DNA of 7,246 bases from Candidatus Poribacteria bacterium (GTDB lineage Bacteria > Poribacteria > DTPJ01 > WJIO01): assembly GCA_014730235.1 (NCBI GenBank), contig WJIO01000284.1, positions 1-7,246 on the forward strand. Reading direction: 5' to 3'. The position numbers and the translations under genes were made by a program. The notes under the pieces were generated by a model. It ran no database searches, had not been told where the DNA came from, and was given only the letters and a program-made list of their open reading frames with translations. Shown piece by piece: positions 1,174-7,076 of the stretch; position 1 is the stretch's first letter; the number at the start of each line of letters is the position of its first letter.

Positions 1174-1593
1174 TTATCTTATGAAATTTACCGTGCCAGG
1201 ACAAAATCCATTTTTTAGAATAAGATCAAACTCATGATGATCCGATGTCACTATTGTGGCTTTTTCGCGTTCAGCAAGTGACAGAACGAAACAATCTGCT
1301 AACGGAACATTCAGGGATGATTTTCTAATTCTGGCTTTATACAATGCAACCATTTTCCAGAATTGTTCATCCATATCTTCCCTGAAAATGAGATCAAGAG
1401 ACTTCAGGTCGGCAATAAGTTCATTGGCAGTAGATTCATTATCCCCACGTAAAAGGCAATCATAATAGACTTCACATAAATTGATGGCATGAGCCATACA
1501 ATTCTCTTTTAAGAGAAGTGACATTACAACATCGGCACCCTTTTCATCTCTCAAGAATGCAATAATAGCACAGGCATCCAGAACATAATTCAA
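1174..1593 (-). CDS. VapC-like PIN-domain ribonuclease toxin
   Basis: This 139-residue protein is a complete PIN domain, a metal-dependent ribonuclease fold used by type II TA toxins. The acidic active-site set is visible: Asp6 in YVLDACAIIAFL, Glu41 in LCEVYYD, Asp100 in PLADCFVLSLA, and Asp118/Asp123 in TSDHHEFD. The start is a TTG at 1593, two bases after the antitoxin stop codon, with a GGAGAG SD (1606-1601) lying inside the last antitoxin codons. This geometry indicates translational coupling, with antitoxin made first. Length and motif order are normal for the family and nothing appears broken. Activity is presumably held in check by the 88-residue partner directly upstream. The RNA target cannot be told from sequence. 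The VapC-like class is clear; the exact subfamily is not. Confidence 0.88.
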   Translation of the reverse strand: MNYVLDACAIIAFLRDEKGADVVMSLLLKENCMAHAINLCEVYYDCLLRGDNESTANELIADLKSLDLIFREDMDEQFWKMVALYKARIRKSSLNVPLADCFVLSLAEREKATIVTSDHHEFDLILKNGFCPGTVNFIR

Positions 1594-1595
1594 TT

Positions 1596-1862
1596 TTATC
1601 TCTCCATTTGAATTTCTTCCTGCTTACGTTGGACATATTCATCACTACTTGTAAGAGCTGAAGAATACTTTCCCTTAATATTTATTAATCGGATTAGACG
1701 TTGCTCCTGTGATACCTGTTGCTCATCACCAATGGCTTCTGTAACGTAACGCTTGATAAGCTCTTCCTTGGATATACCAAGCTCCTTGGCTCTATTTTCA
1801 AGAAGCTCAAATTGACGATCTGCAACTTTGATAATAATCTCATGTTCTACTAATTCTGGCAT
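1596..1862 (-). CDS. Antitoxin of the PIN toxin, ribbon-helix-helix-like
   Basis: An 88-residue protein encoded directly upstream of the PIN toxin with a two-base gap. I prefer the ATG at 1862 (MPELVEHEIIIKV). A GGTGAT-type SD at 1875-1870 lies about seven bases before it, whereas the GTG at 1874 and ATG at 1871 overlap that SD. The N-terminal half looks like a ribbon-helix-helix DNA-binding fold: strand EHEIIIKV, then helix FELLENRAKELG, turn ISKEE, helix LIKRYVTEAI. The C-terminal half is charged and ends KQEEIQMER, as expected for a flexible toxin-binding tail. By family logic it neutralises the PIN toxin and represses its own operon. I cannot assign a named antitoxin family. A degenerate second copy of its N-terminus lies at 1892-1990, between it and the winged-helix gene. 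Confidence 0.78.
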   Translation of the reverse strand: MPELVEHEIIIKVADRQFELLENRAKELGISKEELIKRYVTEAIGDEQQVSQEQRLIRLINIKGKYSSALTSSDEYVQRKQEEIQMER

Positions 1863-1891
1863 TATATACATCACCTTCCTTACTTGATGAT

Positions 1892-1990
1892 CTAAACTCT
1901 TTCCCCAGAATCTATGTCTGCCTTGGACGAAAATCCAAGCTCCTTTGCCCTGTCTTCGAGGAATTCATATTGCTGTTCCTCAACCTTGAC
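1892..1990 (-). pseudogene. Degenerate second copy of the antitoxin N-terminus
   Basis: Read from 1990 down, this frame gives VKVEEQQYEFLEDRAKELG, then FSSKADIDSGERV and a TAG at 1892. It aligns with the intact antitoxin next door at IKVADRQFELLENRAKELG; the DNA for RAKELG is nearly identical (AAGGAGCTTGG shared). There is no start codon, since a TAA lies just upstream in frame, and no toxin-binding half. It is a paralogous antitoxin fragment, either from a tandem TA duplication or carried in with the right-hand module. No function is expected, though the DNA could still affect repression nearby. Confidence 0.75.
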
Positions 1991-2026: not shown

Positions 2027-2504
2027 TCATAAATTCTCTCTCTTCAGAATTTCATTCTCTCTGGCTGTGATCAGTGGTTCTGTTACGAGTTCACTTTTGT
2101 ATTCTCCGGAATCGCGTATTTCTTGTCTGGCCCGTTCCCTGAGCTCAACCTGTTCATCTTCCGATAACGATTTTCTTATTGCATTCAGTCTCTGTAATTC
2201 CCGCTCTTCTTCAGCCTTCTGTTCTTCTTCTTCCCTCCTTGCCTGAAGCTGTCTGTTCTTAATGGCGTTAGATTTATCCCTTTCCGCCACTGCTTTGCCT
2301 ATCATACTGCAAATGCTGGAGAAGTCATAGGGCTTCTCCCCGAAGTTCTTGATGGTGTAGTCAATGGCATGATGAATGTCCTCCAGGTTGAAGCCATCTT
2401 CCTTCAGTTCTTCTATACAGGAATTCGCTCTCTCCCTCTGCTGCTTGGTAATTTTTGATTGGCCTATTTTATTATAAAATTCTTGTATCAGGTCTTCTTG
2501 AGAG
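2027..2504 (-). pseudogene. Displaced C-terminal part of the winged-helix replication-like protein
   Basis: This frame continues the upstream gene after a one-base shift at about 2496-2504. It reads TLSQEDLIQEFYNKIGQSK, then NSCIEELKEDGFNLEDI, HHAIDYTIKNFGEKPYDFS and SICSMIGKAVAERDK, then a Glu/Arg/Gln-rich coiled coil (RREEEEQKAEEERELQRL) and a tail ending ILKRENL at a TGA. The DGFNLEDIxxAIDYT region resembles a helical C-terminal domain I associate with winged-helix replication-like proteins, and it continues the upstream protein naturally, so I read both as one gene of about 433 residues. The part starting at the ATG at 2305 has no good SD and is unlikely to be a gene by itself. G+C is 42-50% here against about 27% just upstream, so the frame break coincides with a composition break. 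Confidence 0.7.
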
Positions 2505-3329
2505 AGTGTCTTTTAAATTGTCTTTATTATCTTTAATGGGTGGAATTTTTGTAGACTCCACGTTTTTTGTAGACTCCACGTTTTTTGTAGACTCTACATT
2601 ATTTGTATACTCCTTTTGAGGTAATTGCTTTACTTCTATTTTTGTCTTACTATCTTTTTCTAAAATCTCTTGGGGAAGAAAGACTTCGTATAAAGTACCT
2701 TTGTTATTTCTGTTAATTATTCTAATATGACCTTGTGTTACTAGGTTATCAACTGCTGTATTTAAAGTTCTTCTATCTTTTATGTTACAAGATGTTAGTA
2801 ACGCCTTAGATGTTATTCTTGTTTGTTTTCTACCCCATCCGATGGATAATCTATAAAGCCTGTTGTAAATACTTTGTTCTATTGGCGTCTGCATAGGATT
2901 AAGATAATCACTTACATCATTATCCCATTTAGTGAAGTTGCATTTGATATTAACTGCTAATGTTTTCTGGGAATTTTTTAATGTATCACTGTATTTTTTT
3001 GTTTTTATAGCTATTCTTTTAGTCTGAAATGGGTATACATTTTTTGTTAAATCTACATTTGATGTGCCCTCTTTGTTATCGATTTTGCTGTCTTTTTGCT
3101 TTAATGACTCTACATTAGATGTATACTCGTCATTATTTGTAGACTCTACATTTGATGTACTGTCTCTTCTGGATATTGATATGATAAATTCATCGATACT
3201 TTTCCAATCTTCGCTTTTAAAGCGTTGTATCAGTTTATATTCATCAGCGGTTAATTTACCGCTGTTATAAGCATTAAGAAGTGCTATACCTGTAGAATCT
3301 TTATATTCTTTTAACTTTGCGCTTTCCAT
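2472..3329 (-). CDS. Winged-helix, replication-initiator-like protein, N-terminal part (frameshifted at its end)
   Basis: I place the start at the ATG at 3329, with GGAG ten bases upstream; an in-frame ATG at 3353 would add eight residues. Either overlaps the end of the ATPase gene. Residues about 146-220 form a winged helix: TPIEQSIYNRLYRLSIGWG, then ITSKALLTSCNIKDRRTLN, recognition helix TAVDNLVTQGHIRI, and a wing ending KGTLYEVFLP. Such domains occur in plasmid and phage replication proteins; I infer DNA binding, not a proven initiator role. Flexible linkers on both sides repeat the motif T(S/N)NVES; three perfect NVESTK units follow the domain. The frame ends SRRPDTRIL at 2472. One base removed near 2496-2504 would extend it through 2027. 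The gene is about 27% G+C. It follows the ATPase in one operon and probably works with it. Confidence 0.68.
   Translation of the reverse strand: MESAKLKEYKDSTGIALLNAYNSGKLTADEYKLIQRFKSEDWKSIDEFIISISRRDSTSNVESTNNDEYTSNVESLKQKDSKIDNKEGTSNVDLTKNVYPFQTKRIAIKTKKYSDTLKNSQKTLAVNIKCNFTKWDNDVSDYLNPMQTPIEQSIYNRLYRLSIGWGRKQTRITSKALLTSCNIKDRRTLNTAVDNLVTQGHIRIINRNNKGTLYEVFLPQEILEKDSKTKIEVKQLPQKEYTNNVESTKNVESTKNVESTKIPPIKDNKDNLKDTLSRRPDTRIL
2551..2604 (-). repeat. Three tandem 18-bp units encoding NVESTK
   Basis: Units begin at 2551, 2569 and 2587. The first two are identical (GTAGACTCCACGTTTTTT on the + strand) and the third differs at a few positions; a partial fourth begins at 2605. Related copies of the core GACTCTACATT lie upstream in the same gene at about 3051-3160. 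They encode a repeated linker peptide. They could also act as DNA-level repeats (iterons), which is only an inference. Confidence 0.85.
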
Positions 3330-4151
3330 AGAGTTTTTTCTCCATCTCCCCATGGGTCTTAACTATGTCATCTGTCACGACAAATATACCATTCATTATA
3401 CATGTTTCCAAGCATGTACCACATAGACGCACAACATGCCGGGGGAAACCCTTTGTATAATCATGGATAGTATTATATGAGTTCTCTATAAATAACTTAT
3501 TGCCATTCCATCCTGCGACTTCTAACCTAAATTCTATCATCTTTTGCATTTCATTAAGATTTAGTGCATTAAGAACATATGATAAACTAATTCTATCAAC
3601 AAAGTTTTTTCTTCTTCTAATTTTTGGTAAAAGCTCCATTTGTCCGAATATTATGATCTGTAGAAATTTCTGTTCAGGTGTCTCAAAATTTAAGAGAGTT
3701 CTGAGAATATCTATATTTGTTGGAGTTAGTGCTTCACCTTCATCTATTATCAGTATTAATGTTCTACCTTTTCCTATATTTTGTTCAAAAGCACAAGTTT
3801 CTAGAGCTGTTCTTGACGCTAATGTAGATCTTGAAATATTCTTTACATTAAAAGAATTAAGTATAAGCTGATAAAATTGATACTCACTTTTAGCCTTTGC
3901 AGTTGACAGTTTAGCTACTAAAAAGTCATCCCTATTGGCATATTCTTTTTGGAGAATCTCCACCATAGTACTTTTACCTGTACCATAGTCACCATAGATT
4001 ACATTTAGTCCACTTTTTTTTCAATAGAAAGATGCAAACGCTGTAGTGCATCATCATGATCTTTTGTATGGTAGAAGAATCTTGGGTCAGGACTGATGCG
4101 AAAAGGATCTTCTTTTAAATCTACTAGTTCATAGATGTTTTGTTTCCCCAT
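3301..4151 (-). CDS. ExeA/TniB-like AAA ATPase, with a -1 frame break at an A8 run
   Basis: The ATG at 4151 has AGGAGG (4163-4158) six bases upstream and overlaps the MerR gene by 23 bases. The zero frame gives 48 codons (NIYELVDLKEDPFRISPDPRF is the ExeA/GspA-type opening) and stops at 4005. At the A8 run (4021-4014), a -1 shift joins it to SGLNVIYGDYGTGKSTMVEI and on to a TAA at 3301, 283 residues in all, the normal family length. Walker A is GDYGTGKS (54-61), Walker B is LILIIDEGE with Asp137/Glu138, sensor 1 is in IIIFGQMELL, an arginine-finger candidate is in FVDRIS, and sensor 2 is GFPRH near 238. Relatives act as DNA-associated ATPases in secretion (ExeA) or transposon targeting (TniB). 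The order with MerR-like and winged-helix genes points to DNA transactions. The shift may be slippage, mutation or sequencing error. The ATG at 3966 lies beyond Walker A and cannot be the true start. Confidence 0.8.
4014..4021 (-). promoter_or_regulatory. A8 slippery run at the ATPase frame break
   Basis: The minus strand reads G, eight A, then GTGGACTAA. In zero frame the codons are GAA AAA AAA GTG GAC TAA. Slipping back one base on AAA AAA gives AGT GGA CTA, the continuation of the ATPase. A-AAA-AAA runs are known sites for bacterial -1 ribosomal frameshifting and for transcriptional slippage. No stimulatory stem was established. Confidence 0.5.
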
Positions 4152-4374
4152 TTGCATCCTCCTTATTAAGTAATTCTTTAATATATTTTATAGCCTGACC
4201 TTTCTTTCTTAATGCTACAATTTGTTTTAATCTTTCTAAGTCATGATCATCAAAAACTCTTTGCCGACTTCCTACGATATTTGATTCTCTTATTAATCCC
4301 TCTTTGATGTAGTAATATACTGTATGGTAAGATATACCAGTTTCTACTGCGAGGTCTGATATTGTATAAACCAA
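4129..4374 (-). CDS. MerR-type DNA-binding protein, short (81 residues)
   Basis: The start is a TTG at 4374, with GGAGG nine bases upstream. Residues 4-24 (TISDLAVETGISYHTVYYY) form the MerR helix-turn-helix, followed by the wing and second helix pair GLIRESNIVGSRQRVFDDH and LERLKQIVALRKKGQAI. The protein ends soon after, at 81 residues. It therefore lacks the long dimerisation helix and effector domain of classic MerR regulators (usually above 110 residues). Short forms of this kind are found as regulators or as excisionase-like factors of mobile elements. It is the first gene of the module and overlaps the ATPase gene. The promoter upstream has a perfect dyad in the -35/-10 spacer, the place where MerR proteins bind, so self-regulation of the operon is likely. 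No ligand-binding residues are visible. Confidence 0.85.
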   Translation of the reverse strand: MVYTISDLAVETGISYHTVYYYIKEGLIRESNIVGSRQRVFDDHDLERLKQIVALRKKGQAIKYIKELLNKEDANGETKHL

Positions 4375-4397
4375 TTTGGGTAACCTCCTATAGTATC

Positions 4398-4436
4398 ACT
4401 TAAAAGTATTTGAGTAATACTTAAAAAAATTTAAGT
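4398..4436. promoter_or_regulatory. Cluster of repeats in the leader of the MerR operon
   Basis: ACTTAAA occurs at 4398-4404 and 4419-4425, two helical turns apart, and its complement TTTAAGT at 4430-4436. Within this lies a perfect inverted repeat, AAGTATT (4404-4410) and AATACTT (4416-4422). These sit between the predicted transcription start and the SD of the MerR gene. They may be operator half-sites or an RNA stem. The AT-rich background makes chance matches possible. Confidence 0.5.
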
Positions 4437-4442
4437 AGAGCT

Positions 4443-4471
4443 ATTTTACTAAAGAGTAAATCTATAGTCAA
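4443..4471 (-). promoter_or_regulatory. Sigma70-type promoter of the MerR-ATPase-winged-helix operon with spacer dyad
   Basis: On the minus strand, -35 TTGACT (4471-4466) and -10 TAAAAT (4448-4443) are separated by exactly 17 bases. A perfect inverted repeat TTTACT-n4-AGTAAA (4445-4460) covers the spacer and overlaps the -10. Transcription should start near 4436, about 60 bases before the TTG start codon. The dyad inside the spacer is the usual arrangement of MerR operators, although classic ones have a 19-20 base spacer. Confidence 0.7.
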
Positions 4472-4539
4472 GGCTTATTTTTATGAATATATGATCCAAA
4501 GCTCATTTCGGCGGGATATTTAGACATAAGCTATAACTT

Positions 4540-4555
4540 GGTGATAATTATCACC
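4540..4555. promoter_or_regulatory. 16-bp perfect palindrome
   Basis: GGTGATAATTATCACC is a perfect palindrome. Its core TGATAATTATCA resembles Fur-family boxes without their central bases. It lies about 70 bases upstream of the MerR -35 element. It is probably a binding site for a dimeric protein; the protein is unknown. Confidence 0.55.
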
Positions 4556-4790
4556 CTGAGAGGCCATATAAGAGGATTACCAACCTAAGGCGGTGCGCTA
4601 ATGTCTCTCTATGGATCTCCTGTGAGGTCTAGTAGGGGTATATCCTTTCCTCCATATCCTGAAGTTGCAGAACATTGTAGCTCTTTTGATCATGAATACT
4701 GATTTTATGTTCTAAGCGGAATTTAAGATTCTTTTATCTTAATATTATTACCAACCATAAGTCATTTCAGAGTTCGATAAAAGGAGCATT

Positions 4791-4897: not shown

Positions 4898-6087
4898 CTA
4901 TCTTATCCATATCTTGCCAAACATAATCAGGAATAATACCAGTAGATACCATCCCAGAAATTTTTGAATACGGTGTCCCCAAATTATCCATCCTGATTCC
5001 CTGTCCAGATTGTATATGCTTTTTTGAGGGATAGTAAAGAGTCAAATTCTATTCCAGGAGTTAATGTATCCAGACTGTATAATAAACCATAAGGTATCCT
5101 TCTCAATTTATCATGTATTAAGGAACTGAACCAGTTCCTGTATCTTATTCTGCACCTTAGGAATATGGAATAATATAAGCCAGGAGCAATCCACAAAAAT
5201 GAAAAGAAACATAGGAATATTAAGGGTTTGACACCATAGCCAAAAGTTTCTTCCAGGAATATTTGTTCTGCTACCCTTGCCCAACTATTATAGCGCCTTA
5301 TTCTCTTTTCTTTTCGATAGGTGTAATAAGCATCATCAGCCTGATCCAGCCAGCCCATATCCCTATAATTTTTGATTAATGCTATATAAAAAGTTTCATC
5401 ATAATGCAAGTGTCTTTTTATGCCATATTGGCTATTATCCCAATATATCCACATTTTGTAAAAGCCACTGACACGATCAAAATGTATTATGCCTTTAAAA
5501 ATCTTAACATTAAAGTAAGTATCTCTGTTAAATGTACTTAAAGAAAAAATAGCACCTTCAGAGAAGGTACTGGAAGTGAAATAAACGTCTTTGTTGAAGT
5601 AACATCCGGAGAAATTAGCAGTTCTGGTGAAGGTGCTGCCTCCAAAGAAAGCACCACCTTTAAAGATAGCGGATGAAAAAAAAGTGTTCCCTTTAAAGGT
5701 ACAACCACGGAAGTCAGCGTCTTGGTTGAAGGTATCCCTTTGGAAGTCCAAAGAAGCACCTCTATCAAAGGTGCTGCCACGGAAGTCACCCTCTCCGTTA
5801 AATGAGGAATTTATAATATGAATAGAATTCTTGACAATAGAACCGACAAATCTGATGTTTCCTTCTACCTTTACATTCAAAAGCCTAATCGCTTTACCTT
5901 CTGTCAGTGCCTTCTCGATATCAGACGCTTCAACAATTTCTAGATTATCATTAGTTCCTATAGCTATAACATAATTCTTACCTTCAGGAGAGCTAAACGG
6001 TTGTGGTTTGGCATTCAGCAAATTCCAGTCAGCAATAGCAGAACAAGAAATTAAACAAAGAGTCAAAATGCCTAAGAAAAGCTGCAT
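4898..6087 (-). CDS. Pentapeptide-repeat protein with a two-helix pore-like membrane domain (frameshifted near the end)
   Basis: I start at the ATG at 6087, where GGAGAG lies just upstream; the ATG at 6090 is also possible. Residues 1-15 (MQLFLGILTLCLISC) look like a lipoprotein or Sec signal with a LISC lipobox. Residues about 97-197 hold roughly nine tandem 11-residue units such as NQDADFRGCTF and NKDVYFTSSTF, the phenylalanine-rich Pentapeptide_3-like beta-helix. After a soluble part containing LHYDETFYIALIKNYRDMG, a membrane helix (PLIFLCFFSFLWIAPGLYY, from about 288) is followed by a pore-loop-like RIPYGLLYSLDTLTPGI. The zero frame stops at 4984. One extra G at 4999-5001 continues it as ESGWIIWGHRIQKFLGWYL and a second helix, LLVLFLIMFGKIWIR, ending at 4898 (396 residues). 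The layout recalls pentapeptide proteins with an Ion_trans_2-like tail, but no TVGYG filter is present. Substrate unknown. Confidence 0.75.
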
Positions 6088-6104
6088 CATACTCTCCGTT
6101 TGTA

Positions 6105-6299
6105 TCAATATATGTAATCGTATCCAAGGAACTCCTTGGGTACGGAAAGCTGGTATTTCCATCTGTTCCATCCATCTTGCTTATTCTCTATGTATGACTC
6201 AACGTTGACCGTAGGCCGTGTATCTTTACTTGTATCCCTAAGGTCACGAAAGTCAATATTATTTACATTTTTTTCTCTTGAAACCCTGTCCAGGATCAT
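6105..6299 (-). CDS. Possible small hypothetical protein (64 residues) before the pentapeptide gene
   Basis: An ATG frame reads MILDRVSREKNVNNIDFRD, then SYIENKQDGWNRWKYQLSV and PKEFLGYDYIY, stopping 14-17 bases before the pentapeptide gene. Its position as a first gene in that operon and its sensible composition favour a real product. Against it, the ATG has no SD and I recognise no domain. A weak promoter candidate (TTGACA at 6330-6325 with TAAAAT at 6303-6298) has an overlong 21-base spacer. It could be a decayed leader gene. Confidence 0.3.
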   Translation of the reverse strand: MILDRVSREKNVNNIDFRDLRDTSKDTRPTVNVESYIENKQDGWNRWKYQLSVPKEFLGYDYIY

Positions 6300-6385: not shown

Positions 6386-6724
6386 ATGGAGATTAAACCC
6401 AGAATCATACGCAATTATGTAACTCCAGAAGGACGAGAGCCTTTTGAAGACTGGCTTGACTCCCTTAAGGATAAGAAAACTCAGGCTTTAGTGCTTGAGA
6501 GGCTTAACCGGATTCGCCTGGGTAACCCTGGCGACTGTAAGCATCTGGACAAAGGTTTATATGAACTGAGAGTTCACTATGGCCCGGGTTACAGAATATA
6601 TTTTGGCGATCTTGATGGCGTAATTGTTATCCTCCTCTGTGGCGGCACTAAAAGTTCACAGAACAGAGATATAAAAAGAGCCAGGGAATACTGGCAGGAA
6701 TTAAAGGAACGAACTGATGAATAA
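6386..6724 (+). CDS. higB: HigB/RelE-type toxin (addiction-module killer protein, Gp49-like)
   Basis: The 112-residue protein matches the RelE-superfamily killer proteins of TIGR02683 type along its whole length: FEDWLDSLKDKKTQALVLER (20-39), RIRLGNPGDCKHLDKGLYEL, then RVHYGPGYRIYF (62-73) and ILLCGGTKSSQNRDIKRA (82-99). Members are ribosome-dependent mRNA interferases that cut translated mRNA in the A site. The ATG at 6386 agrees with the usual family start (the YVTPEGREPFEDWL segment follows shortly), but no SD precedes it and the promoter predicts a leaderless transcript. The gene overlaps the antitoxin start by eight bases, in the toxin-first order typical of higBA. It seems intact, with none of the frame damage seen elsewhere in the window. 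The symbol reflects family type, not a proven orthologue. Confidence 0.9.
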   Translation: MEIKPRIIRNYVTPEGREPFEDWLDSLKDKKTQALVLERLNRIRLGNPGDCKHLDKGLYELRVHYGPGYRIYFGDLDGVIVILLCGGTKSSQNRDIKRAREYWQELKERTDE

Positions 6725-7076
6725 AGAATCGGTCTTAAAACATACATCCAGCTACAGGGACAGGCTTCTGAAAAGGCTGAAAGACCCGGAAATGGCTCAG
6801 GCATATCTTGAAGCTGCCGTCGAATCCTACGAAAGAGAAGGGGAAACACAGGCTTTACTACTGGCCATGAGAGATGTCGCTGAAGCCCAGGGAGGCATCG
6901 GTCAGCTTGCCAAAAGGACAACCATAAGTCGTCCACATCTCTATGATATACTTGCCAGTAAACATGAGCCGCGTCTGGATAATTGGCTAAGTATCATTTC
7001 CGGTCTGGGTTTCCGTATTCGATTAGAACCCCAGGAAACCAGGACAGAGCCTGTTCTTTCTGATCTCAAATCTTAA
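6717..7076 (+). CDS. higA: HigA-type antitoxin with helix-turn-helix (TIGR02684-like)
   Basis: This 119-residue protein has the layout of probable addiction-module antidote proteins. The helical N-terminus YRDRLLKRLKDPEMAQAYLE is followed by LLLAMRDVAEAQGGIGQLAK and the helix-turn-helix RTTISRPHLYDIL (67-79), then HEPRLDNWLSIISGLGFRIR, ending in a polar tail. The first half should wrap the toxin and the Cro/CI-type domain should bind the operator at 6359-6378. The ATG at 6717 lies inside the last toxin codons, with an AAAGGA SD (6703-6708) eight bases upstream, so translation is coupled and SD-driven. The toxin start has no such SD. That contrast may favour antitoxin synthesis over toxin. The protein looks intact. 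Downstream, no terminator is visible before the possible IS end. Confidence 0.9.
   Translation: MNKESVLKHTSSYRDRLLKRLKDPEMAQAYLEAAVESYEREGETQALLLAMRDVAEAQGGIGQLAKRTTISRPHLYDILASKHEPRLDNWLSIISGLGFRIRLEPQETRTEPVLSDLKS

Follow-up and report, generated by a model that had tools for sequence, protein, structure and literature searches.

What unites three overlapping genes encoding a small MerR-type protein, an ExeA-type AAA+ ATPase and a winged-helix protein on a short contig of an uncultured bacterium? The window analysed here is the entire contig (7246 bases, G000:C223) and originates from a MAG of the phylum Poribacteria; to our knowledge, the replicons of this and similar uncultured phyla have been little described. 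A preliminary description of this DNA had proposed that the trio could be the replication or targeting core of a mobile element or integrated plasmid. The first half of that proposal is favoured here, as the winged-helix protein is of the replication-initiator type, and targeting of the TniB/MuB type is not. We read the locus preferentially as the core of a replicon whose composition has not been recorded before, and whose copy in this contig is either inactive or misassembled.

Organization of the locus

The features of the contig are collected in Table 1. As first described, the three genes overlap, by 29 bp (MerR/ATPase) and 53 bp (ATPase/winged-helix gene), and the first of them encodes an MerR-type protein of 81 residues, whose TTG start is preceded by AGGAGG. 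A common promoter had also been proposed, and a promoter-like sequence does lie at 4471-4443, with TTGACG-17-TATAAT at the equivalent position of the second trio described below (L006), but such sites hardly exceed chance in the leader.

Table 1. Features of the 7246-base window
Feature	Position	Strand	Remarks
PIN-domain gene at contig start	1..704		apparent frameshift around 540-590; third broken gene on the contig
VapBC pair	1174..1874
Degenerate second vapB-like stretch adjoining the pair	1935..1989		73% identical, 55 nt
Replication-initiator-like winged-helix gene	2027..3353	-	frameshifted; ORFs 3353-2472 and 2512-2027
18-bp direct repeats within the winged-helix gene, candidate iterons	2546..2613	-	TRF array
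Another array of this 18-bp repeat, weaker, ahead of the winged helix	3106..3159	-	TRF
ExeA-type AAA+ ATPase gene	3301..4157	-	AAA_22 55.9 bits, TIGR03015 113 bits; frameshifted
MerR-type small DNA-binding protein	4129..4374	-	81 aa, TTG start, without effector domain; Pfam MerR_1 67.1 bits
Leader	4375..4471	-	promoter-like TTGACT-17-TAAAAT and AT-rich inverted/direct repeat (4398-4437)
Pentapeptide-repeat protein	4984..6171		395 aa, apparent membrane segment near the C-terminus
HigB/HigA-like toxin-antitoxin pair	6386..7076		intact; Gp49 and dnstrm_HI1420 families
Dispersed repeat at contig end	7102..7245		three further contigs of the genome carry 99-100% copies

The G+C content is 31-32% for the three genes and 43% for the C-terminal part of the winged-helix gene, rather than the 25-28% originally given. 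Sampled 2.35-kb windows of the genome have a mean of 41.1% (sd 2.2) and a minimum of 36.3%, so that the module is indeed AT-rich for its genome. No transposase or integrase gene was found on the contig, as had been noted before, and no relaxase gene either; one copy of the dispersed repeat was checked for a transposase beside it, and none was seen. The contig shows no terminal redundancy in a circularity check and contains no detectable RNA families or tRNAs, and defence-system models returned just weak P-loop matches and one MerR-domain match to mads_1.

Distribution and a second trio

The overlapping trio was found in one of the 83 other Poribacteria genomes, at locus L006 (G001:C367), with flanks unrelated to those of the window, and is absent from the remaining 82; the only other genome of the window's order among those searched was 'Candidatus Poribacteria bacterium SpSt-970'. 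At L006 the genes overlap by 23 bp (MerR/ATPase) and 47-65 bp (ATPase/winged-helix gene), and the identity to the window is 65% for the MerR protein (2559-2804), 74% for the ATPase, which is one unbroken frame of 283 aa, and 54% for the winged-helix protein. Between the two loci, which belong to different genera, dN values range from 0.17 to 0.36 and synonymous sites (dS) are saturated, which indicates that all three genes have been under purifying selection at the protein level. The L006 initiator stops after the winged helix, and inspection of the sequence beyond it revealed no matching C-terminal part. About 140 bp past the initiator gene (4518-4640), a perfect 22-bp tandem repeat of 5.6 copies runs off the contig end; its length is iteron-like, but this contig has further perfect tandem repeats.

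Relatives of the winged-helix protein were found in only two of the 84 Poribacteria genomes. A second phylum contributes Deltaproteobacteria RBG_13_61_14 and one further genome, and a third phylum four genomes of the family f155, besides a marginal match (4.6e-4) in a fifth genome from another family. The initiator-like genes of f155 lie in ordinary chromosomal surroundings in all four genomes. Searches of plasmid and phage collections with three winged-helix queries, and of IMG/VR with the protein, its profile and the repeat DNA, gave no match, and membership of the module in plasmids or phages was dropped for this reason. Two further readings were discarded. A chromosomal origin had been considered because of a dnaN fragment beside L006, but G001 has three copies of this clamp fragment, contig C237 carrying a duplicate at 96.5%, so its position says little; replacement of the chromosomal DnaA by the module was rejected, since G000:C290 encodes DnaA, as do the f155 genomes.

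The import of the module as a unit, as first suggested, is consistent with these data in part: recurrence with different flanks and absence from 82 genomes would fit an imported or a lineage-specific unit. The co-occurrence of the three genes cuts both ways, in that they are adjacent again at L006, whereas the MerR and ATPase genes widely co-occur without the winged-helix gene, and the latter occurs elsewhere without this ATPase. Of the features that would have spoken for a mobile module, no recombinase was found in the window, no transposase beside L006 and no match of the winged-helix protein in the plasmid collection. Mobility is conceivable, with only the patchy distribution, the differing flanks in two genomes and the low G+C (31-32% vs 41.1%) pointing to it.

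The winged-helix protein

The protein is composed of an N-terminal helical domain, a repeat linker, the winged helix, a second repeat linker and, beyond the frameshift, a helical domain and a coiled-coil tail; the repeated linkers and the tail reported earlier are present, though the tail lies after the frameshift. In the predicted model, residues 157-224 clearly form a winged helix, and the N-terminal helical domain is modelled with fair confidence.

That the winged helix is of a kind found in replication proteins, as had been claimed, agrees with several profile matches. The window protein itself scores 20.0 bits with Phage_rep_O, below the curated cut-off of 28.7, and weakly matches phrog_18020 (O-like). 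Its relatives give stronger matches to replication-initiator PHROGs, namely phrog_678, 186, 270, 391, 8102 and others, nearly all of which are annotated as replication initiation or helicase loading. The f155 relatives tested end in DnaA_N (DnaA domain I; PF11638, 1e-8; also DnaA structures in the PDB), and their genes adjoin an MerR-ParA fusion (L019 6750-9503, L026 3545-6139, L027 4160-6924 and L028 5499-9469; the arrangement occurs twice in one genome). Structurally, the modelled winged helix resembles the RepA_N initiators 4pql, 4pt7 and 5kbj with Z-scores of 9.8, 9.5 and 8.9, which unrelated winged helices, including those of regulators, equal. Pfam RepA_N gave no match to the protein at E-values up to 0.1, and a PDB sequence search with the winged-helix profile gave nothing convincing. 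Overall, the assignment of the protein to the replication-initiator type is supported.

Repeats inside the initiator-like gene

At the DNA level, the linkers, of the form EST(K/N)NV, correspond to an 18-bp repeat, GTRGAGTCTACAAAnAAY, the best copies of which contain the perfect dyad TGTAGA-G-TCTACA. Two arrays flank the winged-helix region; the stronger has a period of 18, 3.8 copies, a score of 108 and 90% matches, with the unit GTRGAGTCTACAAAAAAY. The repeat pattern matches the window four times, versus none expected from 200 shuffles. At L006 the same motif appears with 18- and 15-bp spacing, and also twice in reverse orientation (GTATACTC), and the weaker array of the window has a 22-bp exact word in common with it.

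Exact words of at least 16 bp common to both trios occur solely in the repeats, and third codon positions differ by 52-58% between the trios over the MerR gene, the ATPase core and the winged-helix gene. Within the repeats, glutamate is encoded by GAG in 14 of 14 codons, compared with 19 of 65 elsewhere, the repeat copies being treated as independent. The restriction of exact words to the repeats and the GAG bias are suggestive of selection acting on the DNA itself, in tests that duplication within each gene inflates; the conservation could instead reflect recent tandem duplication. Origins inside initiator genes are documented: the lambda origin lies inside gene O and carries four 18-bp dyad iterons (PMC6022878), and in pSK41 the origin is located centrally within rep (PMC5703833).

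The ATPase and its MerR partner

The ATPase best matches the ExeA/TIGR03015 type, with AAA_22 above its cut-off, and displays a PDPRFFY N-terminal motif, Walker A/B and DEG motifs and a whole-length alignment to ExeA/GspA ATPases; TIGR03015 scores 113-153 bits against a cut-off of 324. Of the initial label, ExeA/TniB-like, the ExeA part is retained, and TniB/MuB no longer stands as the first comparison, since the ExeA families outscore it: the TniB domain reaches 19.6 bits in the window versus a cut-off of 22.4, and 22.4 bits, at the cut-off, at L006. With these TniB scores and 47-58 bits for phrog_296 (DNA transposition protein), the module might be taken for the TniB/MuB-like targeting core of a transposon, which the far higher TIGR03015 scores and the lack of a transposase on the contig or beside L006 make very improbable.

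The neighbourhoods of the ATPase were surveyed in 386 genomes. In all seven of its closest matches outside Poribacteria, which align with 38-43% identity, a small MerR gene (72-94 aa) is located directly upstream, as opposed to none of 21 weaker matches; in these seven genomes from several lineages (L032-L038), the MerR gene overlaps or abuts the ATPase gene. Neighbours in several of these loci include PilM, PilN, PilO, a T2SS C-like (T2SSC) protein and secretin-like proteins, and in the tree the window ATPase groups, on a long branch, with the ATPases of such MerR-coupled pilus/secretion loci (98/92). From this grouping and these neighbours, the MerR-ATPase pair is old and, outside Poribacteria, linked to pili or secretion; within Poribacteria, its partner is an initiator instead.

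These observations also accommodate an explanation in which the trio is a displaced MerR-ExeA pair from a type IV pilus or type II secretion locus, combined with a winged-helix transcription regulator, so that the operon controls expression and not replication; the equally good scores of regulators' winged helices would agree with it. However, neither Poribacteria contig (window, L006) carries secretion or pilus genes, the PHROGs call the winged-helix family replication-initiator, and its relatives carry DnaA domain I. We consider this explanation unlikely.

State of this copy

In the window, the ATPase and the winged-helix gene are each interrupted by a frameshift, which the preliminary description passed over, speaking of restored proteins. 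The ATPase frame is broken at an A8 run (about 4013-4020), and the first ORF ends at 4005; the break cuts codons 1-48 off from the Walker A portion, and the second ORF has no start codon ahead of Walker A. Consequently, no full ATPase would be made unless transcription slips at the A8 run, which is speculative. In the winged-helix gene, the frame is broken near 2500-2515. In a comparison with a profile built from five f155 relatives, the first half aligns to positions 44-231 (75 bits) and the second to 297-421 (31.5 bits, versus 10.3 for the best of 1000 shuffles), and since both halves are collinear with one relative protein, the two ORFs represent one gene. Assembly error and decay are indistinguishable for both frameshifts; if they are not assembly errors, this copy no longer yields the full ATPase or initiator.

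Such lesions raise the question of whether the trio is a dead remnant, that is, a degraded piece of a prophage, plasmid or island that has no present function and has persisted by chance amid toxin-antitoxin genes. The two frameshifts, the apparent third in the PIN-domain gene, the degenerate vapB-like copy and the dispersed repeat at the contig end are what such a remnant might display. Against it, dN lies well below dS in the comparison of the two genomes, which shows that the trio was functional for most of the time since they diverged, and the homopolymer and CT-repeat at the lesion sites fit assembly error as well. A remnant of this kind therefore seems rather improbable.

A possible replication core

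We see about an even chance that the module is a small replicon's replication core, the copy in this genome having probably decayed. The basis in hand consists of homology, operon structure, selection and repeats. It is supported by the initiator-family matches, the DnaA_N-bearing relatives beside MerR-ParA, the internal repeats and the purifying selection, as well as by the layout shared by the lambda origin and pSK41, with the origin within the initiator gene. It is weakened by the missing C-terminal part of the L006 initiator and by ATPase kin found in pilus/secretion loci and not in replication, and also by the lack of a circular contig or of a plasmid, phage or viral match, by the chromosomal surroundings in f155 and by the occurrence of the trio in two genomes only.

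In such a replicon, the winged helix would bind the 18-bp repeats as iterons, and the AT-rich gene region would be melted. The C-terminal domain, represented by DnaA domain I in distant relatives, may recruit a helicase or primase, and the ExeA-type ATPase may act as a loader or partition-like partner, filling the slot that an MerR-ParA fusion holds in another phylum. Autoregulation of the operon would fall to the short MerR protein. A wider proposal, in which an origin-in-gene winged-helix initiator and an MerR/P-loop ATPase operon define an unrecorded replicon type, with ParA elsewhere and, in Poribacteria, an ExeA-type ATPase recruited from pilus/secretion loci as a loader, is tentative and rather doubtful. 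If confirmed, the winged-helix protein would provide a searchable marker for replicons in Poribacteria and comparable uncultured phyla. More generally, one may ask what ties a small MerR so closely to ExeA-type ATPases, in the pilus/secretion loci of several lineages as well as here, beside an initiator.

Comparison with known systems

The MerR protein of the window has the helix-turn-helix domain of MerR regulators (MerR_1) and lacks their effector-binding domain. With ExeA/GspA ATPases (TIGR03015, XrtA-associated), the ATPase has in common the motifs and the whole-length alignment given above, but it scores well under the cut-off and has no secretion or PEP-CTERM genes nearby.

Lambda O and its origin are similar to the module in combining a winged-helix initiator, 18-bp dyad-bearing repeats in its own gene and an adjacent partner gene. 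In contrast to lambda O, the window protein stays under the Phage_rep_O cut-off, its partner is an ExeA-type AAA+ ATPase instead of the helicase loader lambda P, the operon is headed by MerR, and the winged helix lies between two repeat arrays. The Rep proteins of RepA_N plasmids (pSK41) and of pPR9 likewise consist of an N-terminal DNA-binding domain, an origin-encoded central linker and a helical C-terminal domain; pPR9 Rep uses HTH_36, which relatives of the window protein match weakly. Unlike RepA_N initiators, the window protein has no RepA_N sequence match, and an MerR-ATPase operon is not described for RepA_N plasmids in the available part of the review (PMC5703833).

The f155 locus differs in that its ATPase is of the ParA type and fused to MerR, and in that its initiator ends in DnaA domain I, but like the window it places an MerR domain, a P-loop ATPase and a homologous initiator-like protein side by side.
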